NCBI GenBank assembly: GCA_902537215.1
Contig: CACBAM010000003.1
Coordinates: 1 to 64,000 of the forward strand
Length of the DNA stretch: 64,000 bases
Direction of reading: 5' to 3'
Source of the DNA: an uncultured Alphaproteobacteria bacterium
GTDB lineage: Bacteria; Pseudomonadota; Alphaproteobacteria; Rhodobacterales; Rhodobacteraceae
Shown here: piece after piece, positions 7,538-31,832 of the stretch
Position numbering within the stretch: the first letter of the stretch is position 1
Layout of the letters: every line of letters begins with the position of its first letter
Notes under the pieces: generated by a model
Told to the model about the DNA's origin: nothing
The model's database searches: none
Seen by the model: the letters and a program-made list of their open reading frames with translations, nothing else
Position numbers and translations under genes: made by a program

Positions 7538-9035
7538 CCCTGTATATATCTCGCAGCACATTTTTTTGTACTTTTCCCATTGAGTTTCTTGGCAATTCTT
7601 TAATAACATGTATTTTTTTCGGCAATTTAAAAGCTGCTAGATTTTTTCGAAGAGTTTCATTGATAATATCGACGTTAATGCTATGTCCTTTTTTCTCAAC
7701 TATTATCGCTAAAATACCCTCACCAAAATCTGGATGTGACACCCCAACAACCGCAGACTCGTCAACCTTACTATCCTGGTCTATAACTGTCTCGATTTCT
7801 TTTGGATAGACATTTAAACCCCCTGTTATTATGAGGTCCTTATTTCGTCCCACTATCGTAAGGTATTTATCTTGATCTAGGAAACCCAAATCACCAGTAA
7901 TAAAATAACCGTCGTCTCTAAATTCGCTTTTTGTTTTCTCTGGTTGTTTCCAGTACCCCTTGAATACATTAGGGCCTTTTACCTCCACAACACCTATATC
8001 CCCATTTTTTTTAACTTCGTCTTCAATCTCCAAGTATACTATTCTTATCTCAACATCTTCAAGAACCGTACCGACAGTCCCTGCTTTTCTTTCACCAATA
8101 TATGGATTTGAAGTTATCATGTTAGTTTCTGTCATTCCGTACCGTTCTAAAATTTTATGACCAGTACGATACTCAAATTCTTTGTGCGTTTCTATCAATA
8201 ATGGCGCACTTCCCGAAATAAAAAGGCGTATGTTTTTTGTTATTTCCTTATTAAATTTTTTATTTGCTAATAATCGGGTGTAGAAGGTTGGAACTCCCAT
8301 CATCACCGTTGTTGAGGGAAGATTTAACATAATGTCATCTACATCAAACTTTTTAAGAAATCGAATTTGACTGCCTGAAACTAAGGCAATATTTGTTGCT
8401 ACAAATAGCCCATGTGTATGGTAAATGGGAAGAGCATGTAACAATATATCGGAAGCTGTAAATTCCCACGCTTTTGAGAGGGTTAGGGCGTTTGAAAGCA
8501 AGTTTTTTTGAGAAAGCATAGCACCCTTCGATTGACCAGTCGTTCCTGAGGTGTAAAGAATTGCTGCTGTATCATCTTCAACTAGTCCTTCAATAAAATC
8601 TAGAGGTTCATTTTCATTAAATTTTGAAAAAAAACTTCCTTTGTAATCAGCATCTATTGTTTCTATATTTAAGCTTCTTTTTTTTTCTAGTGGGTCCAAT
8701 TCCTTCAGCATTTTTGAAGTGGTTATAAAAACTTTACATCCGCTATCATTTAGAAAATATTCCACTTCAATTCCTGTATAGCTCGTATTTAAAGGTATAA
8801 ATATTATACCTAGTTGAACACAGGCACCGTAAATTGTAAAAACGTGATGAGATTTCGCTATTTGAAGAACTAAACAATCCCCCTTTTCCAAACCAAATTT
8901 CTTCAGACAATTTGCCGTACACTTTATTTCATTTAGGAATTCATCATATGTAAGTGTCTTATCCAGGTCAGAAAAACTTAGAAAAATTTTTGACCCTTGG
9001 TTTTTCGCAAACAACTGATTGAATAGGGGGTTCAT
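7512..9035 (-). CDS. matB: Malonyl-CoA synthetase (malonate-CoA ligase)
   Basis: 507-aa member of the ANL adenylating enzymes. It activates malonate with ATP and CoA. The P-loop is LYTSGTTGQSKGAM (about 160-173). The region LHALPIYHTHGLF, then MMGVPTFYTRLL and ERYGMTETNM, is the MatB version of the acyl pocket rather than that of long-chain ligases. The hinge and C-terminal lysine region (TGDLGF, GGLNVYPKE, PRNSMGKVQKN) are complete. It starts four bases after the upstream reductase stop and overlaps yggS, in an operon with a transporter. No malonyl-CoA decarboxylase (matA) or malonate transporter of known type is adjacent. Product assignment rests on motif resemblance. Confidence 0.88.
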   Translation of the reverse strand: MNPLFNQLFAKNQGSKIFLSFSDLDKTLTYDEFLNEIKCTANCLKKFGLEKGDCLVLQIAKSHHVFTIYGACVQLGIIFIPLNTSYTGIEVEYFLNDSGCKVFITTSKMLKELDPLEKKRSLNIETIDADYKGSFFSKFNENEPLDFIEGLVEDDTAAILYTSGTTGQSKGAMLSQKNLLSNALTLSKAWEFTASDILLHALPIYHTHGLFVATNIALVSGSQIRFLKKFDVDDIMLNLPSTTVMMGVPTFYTRLLANKKFNKEITKNIRLFISGSAPLLIETHKEFEYRTGHKILERYGMTETNMITSNPYIGERKAGTVGTVLEDVEIRIVYLEIEDEVKKNGDIGVVEVKGPNVFKGYWKQPEKTKSEFRDDGYFITGDLGFLDQDKYLTIVGRNKDLIITGGLNVYPKEIETVIDQDSKVDESAVVGVSHPDFGEGILAIIVEKKGHSINVDIINETLRKNLAAFKLPKKIHVIKELPRNSMGKVQKNVLRDIYRDEFSDTNK

Positions 9036-26898: not shown

Positions 26899-27606
26899 AT
26901 GGACATAGCGAATAAAAAAGCTCTCGTATTTGGTGGAACTTCCGGAATTGGGCTCTCTACATGTGAACAATTAATTGAAAAAGGTGCAGACGTTATTGCC
27001 ATCAGCAGAGACCCAAGCAAGGCTACCAGTGTTAAACATAACAAACTATCCTTTGAAAGCTGTGATGTAAGAATTGAAGAGGAAGTAAACAATATTTTTG
27101 AAAAGCATGCTCCCTTTGAAATCTTGGTAAGTGCTGCGACTGGAGGAAGCAGAGCTGCTGGCCCATTTCTAGAAATGGATATGACTGAATTTAAAAACTC
27201 TTTTGACAAATTGTGGGGTTACGCGAATGTTGTACGCTATGGTACACAGTATTTAAGCTCGGATGGAACAATAGTTTTGGTCAGTGGTGCACCTGCTAGG
27301 CGAATGAAGCCTGGACAAATTGCTCTTTCTGCTGTTGGAGGCGCAGTTGAGAACCTAGTCAGAGGTGTTGCCAACGAAATTGCTCCAAAGAGAATAAATG
27401 CTGTAGCGCCAGGCTTAATAGATACACCTATGTTTTCACAAGAAGGTGAGGATAGACGAATATTTCTAAGTTCAGCCACAGCATCTCACTCAATAAAGCG
27501 AGCTGGAAAACCGGATGAGGTTGCAAAAGGAATTATCTTTGTTATTGAAAATGATTTTGTTAACGGAACCACTGTTGATGTTGATGGTGGATGGATAAAC
27601 TCTTGA
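26899..27606 (+). CDS. SDR-family protein lacking the catalytic Tyr/Lys
   Basis: 235 aa. It keeps the Rossmann dinucleotide motif GGTSGIG at 12-18, a conserved Ser at 129 (VLVSGAP), the PGLIDTPMF substrate lid and the C-terminal NGTTVDVDGGWINS. Where the YxxxK motif should stand (about 142-146) the sequence reads ALSAV, so neither the proton-donor Tyr nor the Lys is present. It therefore binds NAD(P) but may not be a standard dehydrogenase. It is the first gene of the plus-strand cluster ending at 31832, and its stop is 48 bases before the GFA start. Confidence 0.82.
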   Translation: MDIANKKALVFGGTSGIGLSTCEQLIEKGADVIAISRDPSKATSVKHNKLSFESCDVRIEEEVNNIFEKHAPFEILVSAATGGSRAAGPFLEMDMTEFKNSFDKLWGYANVVRYGTQYLSSDGTIVLVSGAPARRMKPGQIALSAVGGAVENLVRGVANEIAPKRINAVAPGLIDTPMFSQEGEDRRIFLSSATASHSIKRAGKPDEVAKGIIFVIENDFVNGTTVDVDGGWINS

Positions 27607-27653
27607 ACTTAAGACCAATGAGCCGAGTTATGATAAATAGAGAAAAGGTAGAG

Positions 27654-28061
27654 ATGAAAGGATTCACCGGAAGCTGCTTATGTCGAGCTATAACGTATAA
27701 CAGTAACACTGCACCATTAAGGACTTTTAACTGTCATTGCGAGGACTGCAGAAAATGTAGTGGTGCCCCTTATCTTACCAACATATTTGTGAAAGAAGGC
27801 GATTTATATATTCAAGGGACTTTAAAAAGCTACATACATCAATCAGAAAGTGGCAAAAAAATAACTAAAAAGTTTTGCGAACAATGCGGTTGTCAGATGT
27901 TCTCTTTAAATGAAGGTAGACCTGGATTAGTGAGGATACATGCAGGAACAGTAAATGAATTAGAGGTGATAAAACCACAAGGAGACGTTTGGGTATCAAA
28001 AAAAATACCCTCAATCAAAATAGATGAAAGTTTAGATCAGTTTCAGAAAAACTTTTCTTGA
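27654..28061 (+). CDS. GFA/CENP-V family zinc protein
   Basis: 135 aa from the ATG at 27654, preceded by AAAGGTAG; a longer frame starts inside the SDR gene. The zinc-binding pattern is full: SCLC (C8, C10), CHCEDCRKC (C27, C29, C32, C35) and CEQCGC (C75, C78, C80). The family is named after glutathione-dependent formaldehyde-activating enzyme, though many members have other or unknown roles. Next to a methanethiol oxidase, which makes formaldehyde, a role in capturing that product as S-hydroxymethylglutathione is attractive but unproven. Confidence 0.87.
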   Translation: MKGFTGSCLCRAITYNSNTAPLRTFNCHCEDCRKCSGAPYLTNIFVKEGDLYIQGTLKSYIHQSESGKKITKKFCEQCGCQMFSLNEGRPGLVRIHAGTVNELEVIKPQGDVWVSKKIPSIKIDESLDQFQKNFS

Positions 28062-28081
28062 AATAGGAAGGAATAGACAAA

Positions 28082-28480
28082 ATGGCACAAAAAATTGTAA
28101 AACATGTGAAAGATATGGTAGCTGAAGCAAATAAAGAGGTTGAAATAACACCTGTAGTTGATGCCTCAAAATATTTCGAAGATAATAAGTACGTTTTTGT
28201 AGATATAAGAGACCCTAGGGAAATACAAAGAGAAGGAAAAATTCCAAATTCGTTCTCTTGCCCGAGAGGAATGCTCGAATTCTGGATAGACCCTGATAGT
28301 CCCTATCACAAAGAAATTTTTAACCAAGATAAGAAATATGTTTTTTATTGTGCTGCAGCTGGCCGATCTGCTCTTGCAGCCAAAGCAGCACAAGACATGG
28401 GTCTGAGCCCCGTATCTCATCTAGAGGGAGGATTTGCCGCATGGAAAAAATCTGGAAATCCCATTGAAACGAAAGAATAA
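28082..28480 (+). CDS. Single-domain rhodanese
   Basis: 132 aa, one rhodanese domain. The active-site Cys is C90 in a CAAAGRS loop, preceded by the VDIRDPREIQREG motif and followed by LEGGFAAWKKSGNP. No signal peptide is seen, so it acts in the cytoplasm. Rhodaneses carry sulfane sulfur on this Cys. A good ribosome site (GGAAGGAA) precedes the ATG. The next gene, methanethiol oxidase, starts four bases later; H2S from that enzyme could be the ultimate sulfur source. Confidence 0.9.
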   Translation: MAQKIVKHVKDMVAEANKEVEITPVVDASKYFEDNKYVFVDIRDPREIQREGKIPNSFSCPRGMLEFWIDPDSPYHKEIFNQDKKYVFYCAAAGRSALAAKAAQDMGLSPVSHLEGGFAAWKKSGNPIETKE

Positions 28481-28483
28481 ACT

Positions 28484-29839
28484 ATGAATGAAACGTGTTG
28501 TGGTCCTGGATATTCGTCCCCTGCAGAAGCTGTAAGAGCACCGAGGGAGAAACTTTTATATACAATTGCAATATATACAGGAACGGGAATACAGAAGCCT
28601 GACTATTTAGCTACAGTCGATGTTGACCCCGATAGCCCTACTTATTCGAAAGTTATACATAGGTTAGAAATGCCAGGCATTGGTGATGAACTTCATCATA
28701 TGGGATGGAATGCGTGTTCATCTTGCCATGACGATTCTAGGATGACCCGCAAATATCTTTTACTTCCAGGAGTGAGGTCGAATAATATTCACATAGTGGA
28801 TACTGCGACCAATCCTAGAATGCCCACTCTTCACAAAGTTATTGACGGAGCAGACATTAAATCAAAAACCAACTTAAGTGGCCCACATACAGTCCATTGC
28901 CTGGGCTCAGAAATAATTATATCTATGCTGGGTGATGCAAAGGGAGAAGCACCTGGAGGATATTTGCATCTGGATAAGAACTTCGAAATTATAGGAAGAT
29001 GGGAAAACTCAATGGGAGATATACCATTTGGCTATGATTTTTGGTATCAACCAAGACACAATATAATGGTTTCATCAGAGTGGGCTGCTCCCAACACATT
29101 TATGCCGGGCTTTGATTTAGAAGAAGTTGGGCACCTCAAGTATGGAAGACAACTCCATTTCTGGGATTTCAAGGAACGCAAGCCAGTTGAAACTATGTAT
29201 TTGGGTGAAGACGGTCTCGTTCCTTTAGAAGTAAAGTTTCACCATAATCCAGATAGCAGTCATGGGTTTTGCGGTGCAGCACTAAGCGCAAACGTGATAC
29301 ATTGGTGGAAAGACAAAAACGAAAAATGGCAATGGGAAAAAATTATTGATGTAGAAAACCAACCACACCCGGACTGGCCAATTCCTATCCCAGGTGTAAT
29401 GTCAGCAATTCTCGTTTCAATGGATGATAAATATTTATATCTTAATAATTGGCTGCACGGTGATATGAGGCAATATGATATTTCAGACCCTCACAAACCA
29501 AAACTTACTGGTCAAGTTTGGATGGGTGGTCTACTGGGAAGAGCTCCTGAAGTTAATGGTCTTAAGATTGCTGGGGGACCACAAATGTTTCAGCTCAGCC
29601 TAGATGGGAAAAGACTGTACGTAACAACTTCTCTATTTTCTACTTGGGACAATCAATTTTATCCAGATATAAGGGAAAAGGGTGGTGTATTGATGATGAT
29701 TGACTGTGATCCAGTAAACGGAGGGATGAAAATTAATCCTGATTTTATGGTAAATTTTGGGGAAGAACCAAATGGCCCGAGCCGCTGTCATGAAAGTAGG
29801 TATCCTGGCGGTGATTGCACTAGTGATATATGGCTGTGA
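28484..29839 (+). CDS. mtoX: Methanethiol oxidase, selenium-binding protein 56 family
   Basis: 451 aa, full length for SBP56. Recognised by the N-terminal CCGPGYSSPAEA, the CSSC motif at 78-81 followed by HDDS, NIHIVDT, SGPHTVHCLGS, SLDGKRLYVTTSLFSTWDNQFYP-type blades and the ending YPGGDCTSDIW. Characterised relatives are copper-dependent beta-propeller enzymes converting methanethiol, O2 and water to formaldehyde, H2S and H2O2. Some family members were only called selenium-binding. No signal peptide is visible. Known mtoX loci often carry SCO1/SenC and MauG genes; here the neighbours are a rhodanese, a GFA protein and a ferredoxin, with tight spacing. Confidence 0.9.
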   Translation: MNETCCGPGYSSPAEAVRAPREKLLYTIAIYTGTGIQKPDYLATVDVDPDSPTYSKVIHRLEMPGIGDELHHMGWNACSSCHDDSRMTRKYLLLPGVRSNNIHIVDTATNPRMPTLHKVIDGADIKSKTNLSGPHTVHCLGSEIIISMLGDAKGEAPGGYLHLDKNFEIIGRWENSMGDIPFGYDFWYQPRHNIMVSSEWAAPNTFMPGFDLEEVGHLKYGRQLHFWDFKERKPVETMYLGEDGLVPLEVKFHHNPDSSHGFCGAALSANVIHWWKDKNEKWQWEKIIDVENQPHPDWPIPIPGVMSAILVSMDDKYLYLNNWLHGDMRQYDISDPHKPKLTGQVWMGGLLGRAPEVNGLKIAGGPQMFQLSLDGKRLYVTTSLFSTWDNQFYPDIREKGGVLMMIDCDPVNGGMKINPDFMVNFGEEPNGPSRCHESRYPGGDCTSDIWL

Positions 29840-30204
29840 AAATATTTAAGGTTGAAATATCAAATAGACGCGGTAAATCCTATAAAGTTGAAGATAAGCG
29901 TCCATTGCTTGATAGCTTAAAGGAACAGGGTGTCGATCTCCCCTATGGCTGCAAATATGGTGGATGTATCACGTGTGCTGCAAAACTTGTTTATGGAGAA
30001 GTAGATCAAAGAAGGCAGGTGGCACTTAATAATAGACAGATAAATGATGGATACATTATACTTTGCGTTGCAAGACCTTTGTCGAACCTTATTCTTGAAA
30101 TTGGTGTTGAGAGTCATGACAAACTTTATAGAAATCCATTTTTAGATCCATTAAAGCCTCATGAACTAAAGAAAGATATTGCAACGAAAGAAAGAGAGAA
30201 GTGA
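29830..30204 (+). CDS. Plant-type [2Fe-2S] ferredoxin
   Basis: 124 aa. Cluster ligands C41, C46, C49 and C79 follow the C-x4-C-x2-C...C plan of soluble plant/oxygenase ferredoxins (PYGCKYGGCITC, then ILCVARP). A C-terminal tail of about 35 residues, rich in Lys and Glu, goes beyond the fold. It overlaps the methanethiol oxidase end by ten bases, which implies coupled translation and perhaps an electron-transfer role. No ferredoxin reductase is in the cluster. Confidence 0.9.
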   Translation: MAVKIFKVEISNRRGKSYKVEDKRPLLDSLKEQGVDLPYGCKYGGCITCAAKLVYGEVDQRRQVALNNRQINDGYIILCVARPLSNLILEIGVESHDKLYRNPFLDPLKPHELKKDIATKEREK

Positions 30205-30668
30205 TGCCTGAAGCTGATGTAGACCATATATATGATTATCCTAAAGGTTATATCGAAGACATTCTAAAATCTGTAAAAACAATTGCCATGGTTGGGGCTA
30301 GTGGGGATAAGACAAAATTTAGCTATGGTGTTTTAAGGGTACTGCATGAAACTGGATATCAAATGTTACCTGTTAACCCGAACCCCAGTATTAAAGAGAT
30401 TAGAGGTCTTAAGGTCTTTCATAGTTTAAAGGAAATAGATAAGCCAGTTGATATGGTACAGGTATTTAGAAGAAAAGAAGAGTTTTTATCGGTAGCAAAA
30501 GAAGCAATTGAAATAAAAGCAAAAGTACTTTGGGGTCAAATAGGAGTGTATAATGACGAAGCTGCAGAGATAGCAAAAAATGCAGGTTTAAAAGTTGTCA
30601 TGAACAGATGTCCTAAAATTGAATTATTTCGTCCTTTTTGGAAGCCCAGATTAGACCTAAAGATTTAA
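30204..30668 (+). CDS. YccU-like CoA-binding protein
   Basis: 154 aa, a single CoA-binding Rossmann domain. Seen: IAMVGASGDKTKFSYGV, LPVNPNPSIKEIRGLKVFHSL, DMVQVFRR, VLWGQIGVYNDEAAEIA and MNRCPKIE. The ATG at 30204 overlaps the ferredoxin stop as TGATG; a GTG at 30201 is also possible. Family function is unsettled; some members bind CoA or take part in protein acylation. A link to CoA-bound intermediates of the cluster is only a guess. Confidence 0.88.
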   Translation: MPEADVDHIYDYPKGYIEDILKSVKTIAMVGASGDKTKFSYGVLRVLHETGYQMLPVNPNPSIKEIRGLKVFHSLKEIDKPVDMVQVFRRKEEFLSVAKEAIEIKAKVLWGQIGVYNDEAAEIAKNAGLKVVMNRCPKIELFRPFWKPRLDLKI

Positions 30669-30680
30669 AGAGAGTGTCAC

Positions 30681-31832
30681 ATGGAATATCTCACTATTGA
30701 CGATCTTAAGAACGAAGCAAGAAAAAAAGTTCCTAAAGCATTTCACGAATATGTTCTATCAGGTTCTTGGACGGAGTCTACTTTGAAAGATAACAGTAAC
30801 GATTTTAAAAAAATTTCCTTTAGACAGAGAGTTGCTGTCGATATTTCTAATAGAAGTACTAGAAAGAGTTTATTAGGCACAGACTACAAGATGCCGGTTG
30901 CTTTAGCTCCGGTAGGTTTGCTCGGCATGCAAAAAGCAAATGGTGAGATATTGGCAGCACAAGCAGCGGAGAGTTTCGGAGTTCCTTTTACACTTTCTAC
31001 CATGTCGATTTGTTCAATAGAAGAAGTTGCGAGAAATACTTCAAAACCATTTTGGTTTCAGCTCTATGTCATGAGAGATCACGATTTTGCCAAACGATTA
31101 GTTGAAAGAGCAAAAGCAGCAGAATGCTCAGCCTTGGTGCTTACTTTGGATTTACAAATACTAGGCCAAAGGCACGCCGATATAAGGAATGGTTTATCAG
31201 TACCTATCAAGATAAAAATGTCTAATGTTTTTGACTTGATATCAAAACCAAATTGGTGTTTTGAAATGGCAAGATCAAAAAATAGAACCTTCGGAAATAT
31301 TATGGGTCATGTAAAAGATATTAAAAACCTAACCTCTCTAACGAAATGGGTACAAAATCAATTTGATCCAAAACTTAACTGGGATGATGTCAAAAGAATA
31401 AAAGACTGGTGGGGAGGCAAGCTAATTATTAAGGGGGTCATGGACCCAGATGACGCTAAAATGGCACAGAAATGTGGTGCGGATGCTTTGGTGGTTTCTA
31501 ATCATGGTGGAAGACAACTAGATGGAGTTAATAGTTCTATTTCTACGCTTCCGCAAATTAAGAAAGCTGTTTCAGATATAGATGTATTATTTGATGGTGG
31601 TATTTCTTCCGGACAGGATATTCTCAAAGCTATCGCCTTAGGAGCTGAAGGAGTAATGATTGGTAGATCTTTTGTTTATGGTCTATCAGCAAAAGGAAAG
31701 AAGGGGGTTATAAAGGCGTTAGAAATTCTCGATAAGGAACTTGATATGACAATGGCGCTATGCGGAAGACGAGACATAAAAGACGTTGGAAGAGATATAA
31801 TTAAAGATTGTCCTTTTTTTGATAAGAACTAG
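30681..31832 (+). CDS. FMN-dependent alpha-hydroxyacid dehydrogenase (LldD family)
   Basis: 383 aa. Family features are canonical here: APVGLLGMQKANGEI, STMSICSIEEVA, WFQLYVMRD, LTLDLQILGQRHAD, LIIKGVMDPDDA, the catalytic His in SNHGGRQLDG, and FDGGISSGQDILKAIALGAEGVMIGR. It oxidises an L-2-hydroxy acid (lactate, glycolate or a similar compound), passing electrons to quinone or oxygen. As the last gene of the cluster, 12 bases after the CoA-binding gene, it might handle a hydroxy acid made from the C1 unit. It converges on recF with a four-base overlap. Confidence 0.9.
   Translation: MEYLTIDDLKNEARKKVPKAFHEYVLSGSWTESTLKDNSNDFKKISFRQRVAVDISNRSTRKSLLGTDYKMPVALAPVGLLGMQKANGEILAAQAAESFGVPFTLSTMSICSIEEVARNTSKPFWFQLYVMRDHDFAKRLVERAKAAECSALVLTLDLQILGQRHADIRNGLSVPIKIKMSNVFDLISKPNWCFEMARSKNRTFGNIMGHVKDIKNLTSLTKWVQNQFDPKLNWDDVKRIKDWWGGKLIIKGVMDPDDAKMAQKCGADALVVSNHGGRQLDGVNSSISTLPQIKKAVSDIDVLFDGGISSGQDILKAIALGAEGVMIGRSFVYGLSAKGKKGVIKALEILDKELDMTMALCGRRDIKDVGRDIIKDCPFFDKN

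Follow-up and report, generated by a model that had tools for sequence, protein, structure and literature searches.

A candidate methanethiol oxidase of the SBP56/SELENBP1 family keeps a ferredoxin and a CoA-binding protein as conserved gene neighbors in marine bacteria

We analyzed a stretch of 64,000 nucleotides, called the window here (GenBank assembly GCA_902537215.1, contig CACBAM010000003.1, positions 1 to 64,000), from an uncultured marine alphaproteobacterium whose nearest named relatives are single-cell or metagenome assemblies, some of them assigned to the Rhodobacteraceae. It holds a close run of seven plus-strand genes, for a short-chain dehydrogenase (SDR), a GFA-domain zinc protein, a rhodanese, an SBP56-family protein, a [2Fe-2S] ferredoxin, a coenzyme A (CoA)-binding protein, and a flavin mononucleotide (FMN)-dependent dehydrogenase (Table 1). 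The original prediction, made from the sequence alone, had taken the whole run for a methanethiol oxidase cluster with handlers for its products, and coordinates and Pfam scores well above the gathering cut-offs confirmed the seven open reading frames and their families. Compared across genomes, the run resolves into three core genes (SBP56, ferredoxin, and CoA-binding protein), one recurrent sulfur carrier (the rhodanese), and three local additions. We call the oxidase clade found here clade A; an electron carrier belongs with it, and so does a CoA-binding protein.

The SBP56 protein is, as judged from its sequence, of the SELENBP1-like kind and not of the periplasmic MtoX kind. It scores 160.7 bits against the MtoX equivalog model NF052453, under the cut-off of 650, and is about 27% identical to MtoX-type proteins; judged by eye only, its N terminus has no hydrophobic leader. 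A tree of 57 rows showed three groups, namely the MtoX type (support of 100/100), clade B (99/99), and clade A, which includes the window protein and is supported at 97/99 without the deep row L031 and at 61/88 with it. Clade-B proteins are 38 to 43% identical to the window protein. MtoX from Hyphomicrobium and Ruegeria pomeroyi (PMC5739008) belongs to the SBP56 family as well, and it shares with the window protein the columns of H71, H72, H135, D185, E249, W227, and W388. Six residues, in the form XHHX, HXXH, Asp, and Glu, are reported to be essential for the activity of human SELENBP1 (PMC10362175). All six have counterparts in the window protein, matched by motif and spacing, and H71, H72, H135, H138, D185, and E249 are each present in 74 of 74 clade-A rows.

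The three cysteine motifs of the Cluster-1 methanethiol oxidases of Rhodobacteraceae (GWNACS, HT(V/I)HC, and GGDC(S/T)) are also present, as GWNACS, HTVHC, and GGDCT around Cys78, Cys139, and Cys445, and these cysteines are kept in all 74 clade-A rows. For two such oxidases, RdMTO and RlMTO, both consumption of methanethiol and formation of sulfane sulfur have been reported, in vitro as well as in Escherichia coli (PMC10936201). The cysteines are 61 and 367 residues apart in 72 of 77 clade-A rows, as in the window, and 61 and 366 apart in RdMTO (C82, C143, and C448). We therefore infer from the cysteine spacing that RdMTO of Roseobacter denitrificans is the tested relative of clade A. The cysteine numbers of RlMTO (C76, C140, and C456) are identical to those of several clade-B proteins, and RlMTO accordingly matches clade B, which has a different downstream partner. 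In its residues, the window protein thus matches a copper-dependent methanethiol oxidase, in line with the assignment first made, and it probably breaks down methanethiol. Formaldehyde, H2S, and H2O2 had been expected as products. Formaldehyde stands, whereas the tested Rhodobacteraceae enzymes are reported to give sulfane sulfur with it and no H2O2 (PMC10936201).

Loci outside the genus came from a scan of species genomes, of which the 80 best matches out of at least 594 were used, from whole-genome searches (385 genomes of the class and 398 of the phylum), and from plasmid records. This gave 75 distinct clade-A loci after L136 and L138 had been dropped, their SBP56 being identical to that of L135; in the counts below, loci with too little flank to be judged are left out of the denominators. 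A ferredoxin gene lies directly downstream of SBP56 in all 74 judgeable loci, so that the companionship proposed in the original prediction is kept far beyond the genus. The CoA-binding protein, which that prediction had overlooked, is nearly as fixed a companion, being found downstream of SBP56 in 70 of 73 loci (the exceptions are the deep L031, L158, and L193). The pairing spans Rhodobacterales, SAR116, Pelagibacteraceae, and Granulosicoccaceae. The next commonest neighbors are well below these counts, with a divergent IclR gene in 33/68 loci and a rhodanese in 20/63. Because the trio is kept while its other neighbors turn over, the changing surroundings serve as a built-in control.

The pairing was also seen from the side of the ferredoxin. 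A search of the 385 class genomes gave ferredoxin matches in 158, and among the matches listed, only 8 places show at least 44% identity, with a clade-A SBP56 gene adjacent at every one of them; in G385, a further clade-A SBP56 gene stands at a contig end, where a ferredoxin could not be judged. In 51 of 75 loci, the ferredoxin frame has a start codon no more than 20 nt ahead of the stop of SBP56, which is consistent with translational coupling. Two local variants were noticed. Eight loci titled Pelagibacteraceae (L109, L110, L122, L127, L132, L135, L138, and L139) carry a second CoA-binding gene after the first, whose product is 41 to 42% identical to that of the window. In Roseovarius sp. 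isolate 2-342 (L126), the order is SBP56, CoA-binding protein, ferredoxin, and rhodanese; the ferredoxin is of the lineage seen at L193 and L158, and another SBP56 gene (40%) is nearby.

Both companions have features of their own. The ferredoxin scores 77.5 bits against fdx_plant (TIGR02008), just under the cut-off of 81.15. Its best solved relatives are ferredoxins of the plant and cyanobacterial type, while its nearest named relatives include the reductase domains of oxygenases (PaaE, and also MmoC and BenC). With these proteins it shares the Fer2 domain and the cysteine spacing (Cys41, 46, 49, and 79, C-x4-C-x2-C-x29-C, invariant in 36 rows), to which it adds a nearly invariant C-terminal tail in which H96, L99, N102, P103, and F104 are invariant in the same number of rows. 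The CoA-binding protein, for which binding of CoA itself is predicted, consists over most of its length of the same domain as the stand-alone CoA_binding_2 structures 2duw, 1iuk, and 2d59. Unlike these, its family has an invariant stretch, RCPKIELFRPFWKP, near the C terminus (C137 to W147, 36 rows), and the match to 2duw (109 bits) ends before FWKP. The nearly invariant tails of the two proteins look like possible docking surfaces.

No description of the SBP56-ferredoxin pairing was found in our searches of open papers, among which a table in PMC10203303 names the three genes separately. That study reports that 51 of 2196 core genes differ in expression between two NAC11-7 species, among them genes for a CoA-binding domain, a ferredoxin, and a selenium-binding protein, which have consecutive IMG numbers; one of the two species shows the higher expression for all three (ratios of 0.42, 0.34, and 0.47). 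HTCC2255 (L083) itself has the trio in this order, and from the consecutive numbers the three shifted genes appear to be this trio.

Among the eight haloarchaeal plasmid loci listed, a ferredoxin gene follows SBP56 intact in four (Natronorubrum aibiense, Natronococcus occultus, Halocatena salina, and Haladaptatus halobius), is broken in one, and is lacking in three. The broken one is on a Natrinema gelatinilyticum plasmid (L248, downstream of 4326), where a ferredoxin-like frame is interrupted by stops and a frame change. The haloarchaeal ferredoxins are homologous to the bacterial ones over their length (L031 versus N. aibiense, 50%). The bacterial SBP56-linked ferredoxins alone form a group with support of 94/84. 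A single origin of the bacterial and archaeal ones was not kept as a conclusion; it appeared in 38% of 200 bootstrap trees, which neither shows nor excludes it.

The core genes might adjoin only because a compact operon was inherited, without working together. The loci are indeed related, and the pairwise distances of SBP56, ferredoxin, and CoA-binding protein correlate (r of 0.46 to 0.60, reached in 0 of 999 permutations), as would be expected from descent alone; we rejected this correlation as proof of interaction, since shared descent accounts for it and it includes no control for the species tree. Yet the pair is kept while the genes around it change freely, the pairing is found in several alphaproteobacterial orders, a family that is gammaproteobacterial by the titles of its records, and haloarchaea, and the L126 operon holds a ferredoxin of another lineage. 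Mere co-inheritance is therefore extremely improbable in our view.

Within the genus, SBP56 is present in 20 of 22 genomes, and the two without it are 64% and 71% complete. All seven genes occur in the same order in 16 of 19 same-genus loci, which shows that the arrangement is not due to chance; a duplicate stretch (L043) of genome G022 was dropped. Two of the remaining loci (L055 and L056) lack only GFA, and in the third (L057) the contig ends just upstream of SBP56. In L058 of genome G035, SBP56 lies in two frames with stops (7540-8869), through decay or an assembly error. At the window locus, the SDR and GFA genes overlap by 16 nt or, with the later GFA ATG, are separated by 47 nt, close to the 48-base maximal gap given originally. 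The junctions that follow are, in order, gaps of 20 and 3 nt, overlaps of 10 and 4 nt, and a gap of 12 nt. The CoA-binding gene has a GTG start, with ATG as the next codon at 30204. The run is flanked by a divergent EamA transporter gene on one side and, on the other, by a convergent gene that we take to be recF, with what are presumably dnaN and dnaA nearby; these three names are based on the sequence itself. The FMN dehydrogenase gene and the presumed recF overlap by 4 nt (window positions 31829-31832).

Table 1. Genes of the SBP56 run in the window, and the DmdA genes found elsewhere in the same genome
Feature	Position	Strand	Family score	Placement or remark
Short-chain dehydrogenase (SDR)	26899..27606	+	PF13561, 108.5 bits	Genus-level addition
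GFA-domain zinc protein	27591..28061 (start may be 27654)	+	PF04828, 106.1 bits	Genus-level addition
Single-domain rhodanese	28082..28480	+	PF00581, 68.3 bits	Recurrent accessory gene
SBP56/SELENBP1-type methanethiol oxidase candidate, 451 aa	28484..29839	+	PF05694, 686 bits over residues 5-451 (gathering cut-off 34)	
Plant-type [2Fe-2S] ferredoxin with extra C-terminal tail	29830..30204	+	Fer2, 52.4 bits (cut-off 21)	Core module
Stand-alone CoA_binding_2 protein	30201..30668	+	PF13380, 125.6 bits (gathering cut-off 22.8)	Core module
FMN-dependent alpha-hydroxyacid (L-lactate-type) dehydrogenase	30681..31832	+	PF01070, 435.9 bits	Genus-level addition
Own-genome DmdA pair	G000:C1:42988-44073, G000:C8:59377-60462			41% identical to each other

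The original prediction treated the seven genes as one unit, in which the GFA protein traps formaldehyde and, in an extended form, SDR and the FMN dehydrogenase finish the carbon. The tight spacing and the 16 complete genus loci agree with this. However, homologs of SDR, GFA, and FMN dehydrogenase with at least 40% identity occur in 0 of the 75 outside loci (weaker SDR and GFA homologs, of 26 to 31% identity, were seen in a few), and with GFA missing from two genus loci, we regard the three as additions at the level of the genus. Against the S-(hydroxymethyl)glutathione synthase model (TIGR02820, cut-off 234.55), the GFA protein reaches 22.4 bits, so we rejected it as a true Gfa, and the case for a formaldehyde trap is weak; the genome encodes a standard formaldehyde dehydrogenase of the glutathione-dependent type (AdhC) at another place. 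The FMN dehydrogenase passes the PRK11197 cut-off (424.7 bits over 376) and falls under that of LldD (369.4 under 550). We thus rejected the run as one conserved unit, as only SBP56, ferredoxin, and CoA-binding protein persist outside the genus, and such a seven-gene function is very doubtful. Of the seven-gene order, outside loci keep the ferredoxin, the CoA-binding protein, and in part the rhodanese beside SBP56. Overall, the first interpretation is supported for the oxidase residues, the ferredoxin pairing, the rhodanese, and the lack of SCO1 and MauG at the locus (see below), and is not supported for GFA, SDR, and the FMN dehydrogenase.

The rhodanese had been proposed as a handler of the sulfur, and this fared better. 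In the 20 outside loci that have one, it is on the same strand and at most 3.3 kb downstream of SBP56, and 19 of these 20 proteins have the active-site cysteine motif. A rhodanese also fits better here than a handler of H2S would, since the tested relatives make sulfane sulfur and no H2O2 (PMC10936201).

Other sulfur-cycle genes recur near clade-A SBP56 outside the genus. We found a DmdA-like gene (at least 60% identity to the Phaeobacter one) in 12 of 58 loci, enoyl-CoA hydratase in 15, acyl-CoA synthetase in 10, and persulfide dioxygenase and AdhC in 4 each; L192 and L193 supplied some of the query proteins and are counted among the matches. On the conjugative plasmid NZ_CP010619.1 of Phaeobacter inhibens (L192), SBP56, ferredoxin, CoA-binding protein, and rhodanese lead one run that continues with persulfide-dioxygenase-like, enoyl-CoA hydratase, acyl-CoA synthetase, and DmdA-like genes, with an IclR gene divergent to it. 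The names are kept cautious. The persulfide-dioxygenase-like protein of L192 matches the second half of the Blh model with 367 bits, under the cut-off of 625. The GcvT-family neighbor is called DmdA-like only, identity as DmdA having been rejected at 377.0 (L192) and 380.5 bits (L076) against a cut-off of 410 (NF009133), and the acyl-CoA synthetase beside it was rejected as a 3-(methylthio)propionyl-CoA ligase (288.5 versus 822). In genome G027, a clade-B SBP56 gene (L048:8579-9928) lies downstream of DmdA-like, enoyl-CoA hydratase, and acyl-CoA synthetase genes (68, 57, and 51% identical to those of Phaeobacter); the cassette therefore goes with two SBP56 clades.

Away from the SBP56 locus, the genome to which the window belongs encodes two DmdA proteins over the cut-off of 410 (499.5 and 470.4 bits), AdhC, and a persulfide-dioxygenase-like protein with 50.5% identity to that of Phaeobacter. 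A single cell could thus plausibly both form methanethiol and deal with its products.

The clade-A enzyme could instead serve mainly other thiols, persulfides, or selenium in vivo, with both partners in that redox job. An N-terminal CC motif, linked to selenium binding in plants (PMC10277263 and PMC10362175), is present in 72 of 74 clade-A rows, human SELENBP1 is reported to oxidize several thiols (PMC10362175), and the window locus has no IclR gene, whereas about half of the outside loci do. We nevertheless consider another main substrate quite unlikely, as the sulfur-cycle neighbors recur (DmdA-like, rhodanese, persulfide dioxygenase, and AdhC, as counted above) and the tested Cluster-1 proteins use methanethiol (PMC10936201).

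The companions known from MtoX loci, SCO1 and MauG, had been noted as missing, which is correct for this locus; neither SCO1 nor CCP_MauG gave a match anywhere in the assembly. A genus-wide absence of SCO1 was rejected, as it occurs elsewhere in 16 of 22 genus genomes, and only its absence from the locus was kept. CCP_MauG matches were found in 2 of these 22 genomes. Among eight MtoX-type stretches, seven of which had only 1.5 kb of flank, SCO1 was found in 7 and MauG in 5, in contrast to none in 74 clade-A and 12 clade-B loci (the 74 loci here take in the genus locus L077 as well as L136 and L138). Clade B has its own companion, a hydrophobic protein with no name, about 210 aa long, that follows SBP56 in 39 of 40 loci (L174 is the exception; one example is L238:8892-9563); four of these proteins gave no Pfam match over the cut-off, and two of the four gave no NCBIfam match.

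This distribution raises the possibility that the ferredoxin and the CoA-binding protein build the enzyme rather than run it, serving as electron source or scaffold while copper is inserted and a quinone is formed from tryptophan, a task proposed for SCO1 and MauG in the case of MtoX. Two tryptophans, W227 and W388, are present in 74/74 clade-A and 7/7 MtoX-type rows and may be the quinone pair; their equivalence to Trp223 and Trp386 of RpMTO is inferred from spacing. Of the 20 SBP56-bearing genus genomes, 19 have no CCP_MauG match, and on a plasmid of Paracoccus seriniphilus (L193:9761-10564) SBP56 and ferredoxin are followed by a PpoB2 copper chaperone in the place of the CoA-binding protein. 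On the other side, RdMTO was reported to be active from E. coli with no such partners (PMC10936201), SCO1 is encoded elsewhere in most genus genomes, the quinone of clade-A enzymes is a candidate from conserved tryptophans only, and clade B has neither MauG nor ferredoxin beside SBP56, yet RlMTO was reported to be active. We regard a role in maturation as possible but rather unlikely.

Our preferred reading, to which we give a probability of about 0.58, is a cytosolic methanethiol-oxidizing module, in which a copper SBP56 enzyme would be served by a dedicated ferredoxin as electron donor and by a dedicated CoA-binding protein, with the rhodanese taking the sulfur. Methanethiol, here plausibly from demethylation of dimethylsulfoniopropionate, would bind Cys445 and be oxidized at the copper site, with formaldehyde as product and sulfane sulfur retained on the cysteine, as reported for clade members. 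The rhodanese may then pass the sulfur on, by transfer or to oxidation by a persulfide dioxygenase. The ferredoxin would give electrons to the oxidase, at the copper/O2 center or for freeing the persulfide, and the CoA-binding protein, a fixed partner, might perhaps dock or carry CoA or a CoA persulfide. SDR, GFA, and FMN dehydrogenase would be later additions to the run within the genus. In this picture the order of the genes, their families, the conserved residues, and the wide spread of the pairing are observed, and the substrate, the direction of electron flow, and the path of the sulfur are deduced. Plant-type ferredoxins have low potentials, and oxidation of methanethiol to formaldehyde would hardly reduce them. 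With this low potential, and with relatives that serve oxygenases, the ferredoxin is expected to give rather than take electrons; running the catalytic cycle, freeing the persulfide, and helping to build the cofactor are alternatives for what the electrons do.

Several observations weigh against the module as just described. RdMTO and RlMTO were reported to be active from E. coli in the absence of their native partners (PMC10936201) and hence have no strict need of them in that host; our search controls showed, though, that E. coli encodes CCP_MauG and SCO1-type proteins of its own. The reported reaction, CH3SH + O2 -> HCHO + S0 + H2O, requires no outside electrons, and contact of the ferredoxin with SBP56 is suggested only indirectly, by the pairing of their genes. 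No rhodanese lies within 3.3 kb in 43 of 63 outside loci, 54 of 58 are without persulfide dioxygenase, and 37 of 58 are without any enoyl-CoA hydratase, acyl-CoA synthetase, or DmdA-like gene. As they come mostly from the best 80 matches, the outside loci are related to one another. In the three haloarchaeal plasmid loci mentioned above, no ferredoxin was found within about 500 nt of SBP56, and none is beside the SBP56 gene of Rubrobacter (61% identity).

Comparison with the known systems shows where the clade-A module differs. The main text of PMC10936201, on RdMTO and RlMTO, does not mention ferredoxin, rhodanese, or an operon, and ferredoxin is likewise unmentioned in the text of PMC10362175, which reports H2S and H2O2 as the products of human SELENBP1. 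In a bolder form of our reading, the natural enzyme would be a ferredoxin-dependent copper system of bacteria and archaea, in which electrons from the dedicated ferredoxin let methanethiol be split with no H2O2 formed and, in marine alphaproteobacteria, the CoA-binding protein is a dedicated carrier of sulfur or of CoA persulfide that delivers the sulfur to the rhodanese. We hold this to be speculative and unlikely; if it were true, the published assays, done on the oxidase by itself, would reflect an uncoupled reaction.

The mechanism of SBP56/SELENBP1 enzymes is under dispute, with H2S and H2O2 reported for the human enzyme and sulfane sulfur with no H2O2 for those of Rhodobacteraceae, and clade-A enzymes lack the MauG that has been proposed to build the MtoX cofactor. 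The conserved companions suggest that the clade-A enzyme works with partners. A fixed ferredoxin and CoA-binding protein in abundant ocean bacteria provide two named proteins for assays of the oxidase. If these partners alter its rate, products, or cofactor, this would bear on the turnover of methanethiol in the ocean, as well as on the question of what is missing or replaced in the relatives of the enzyme in animals and plants.

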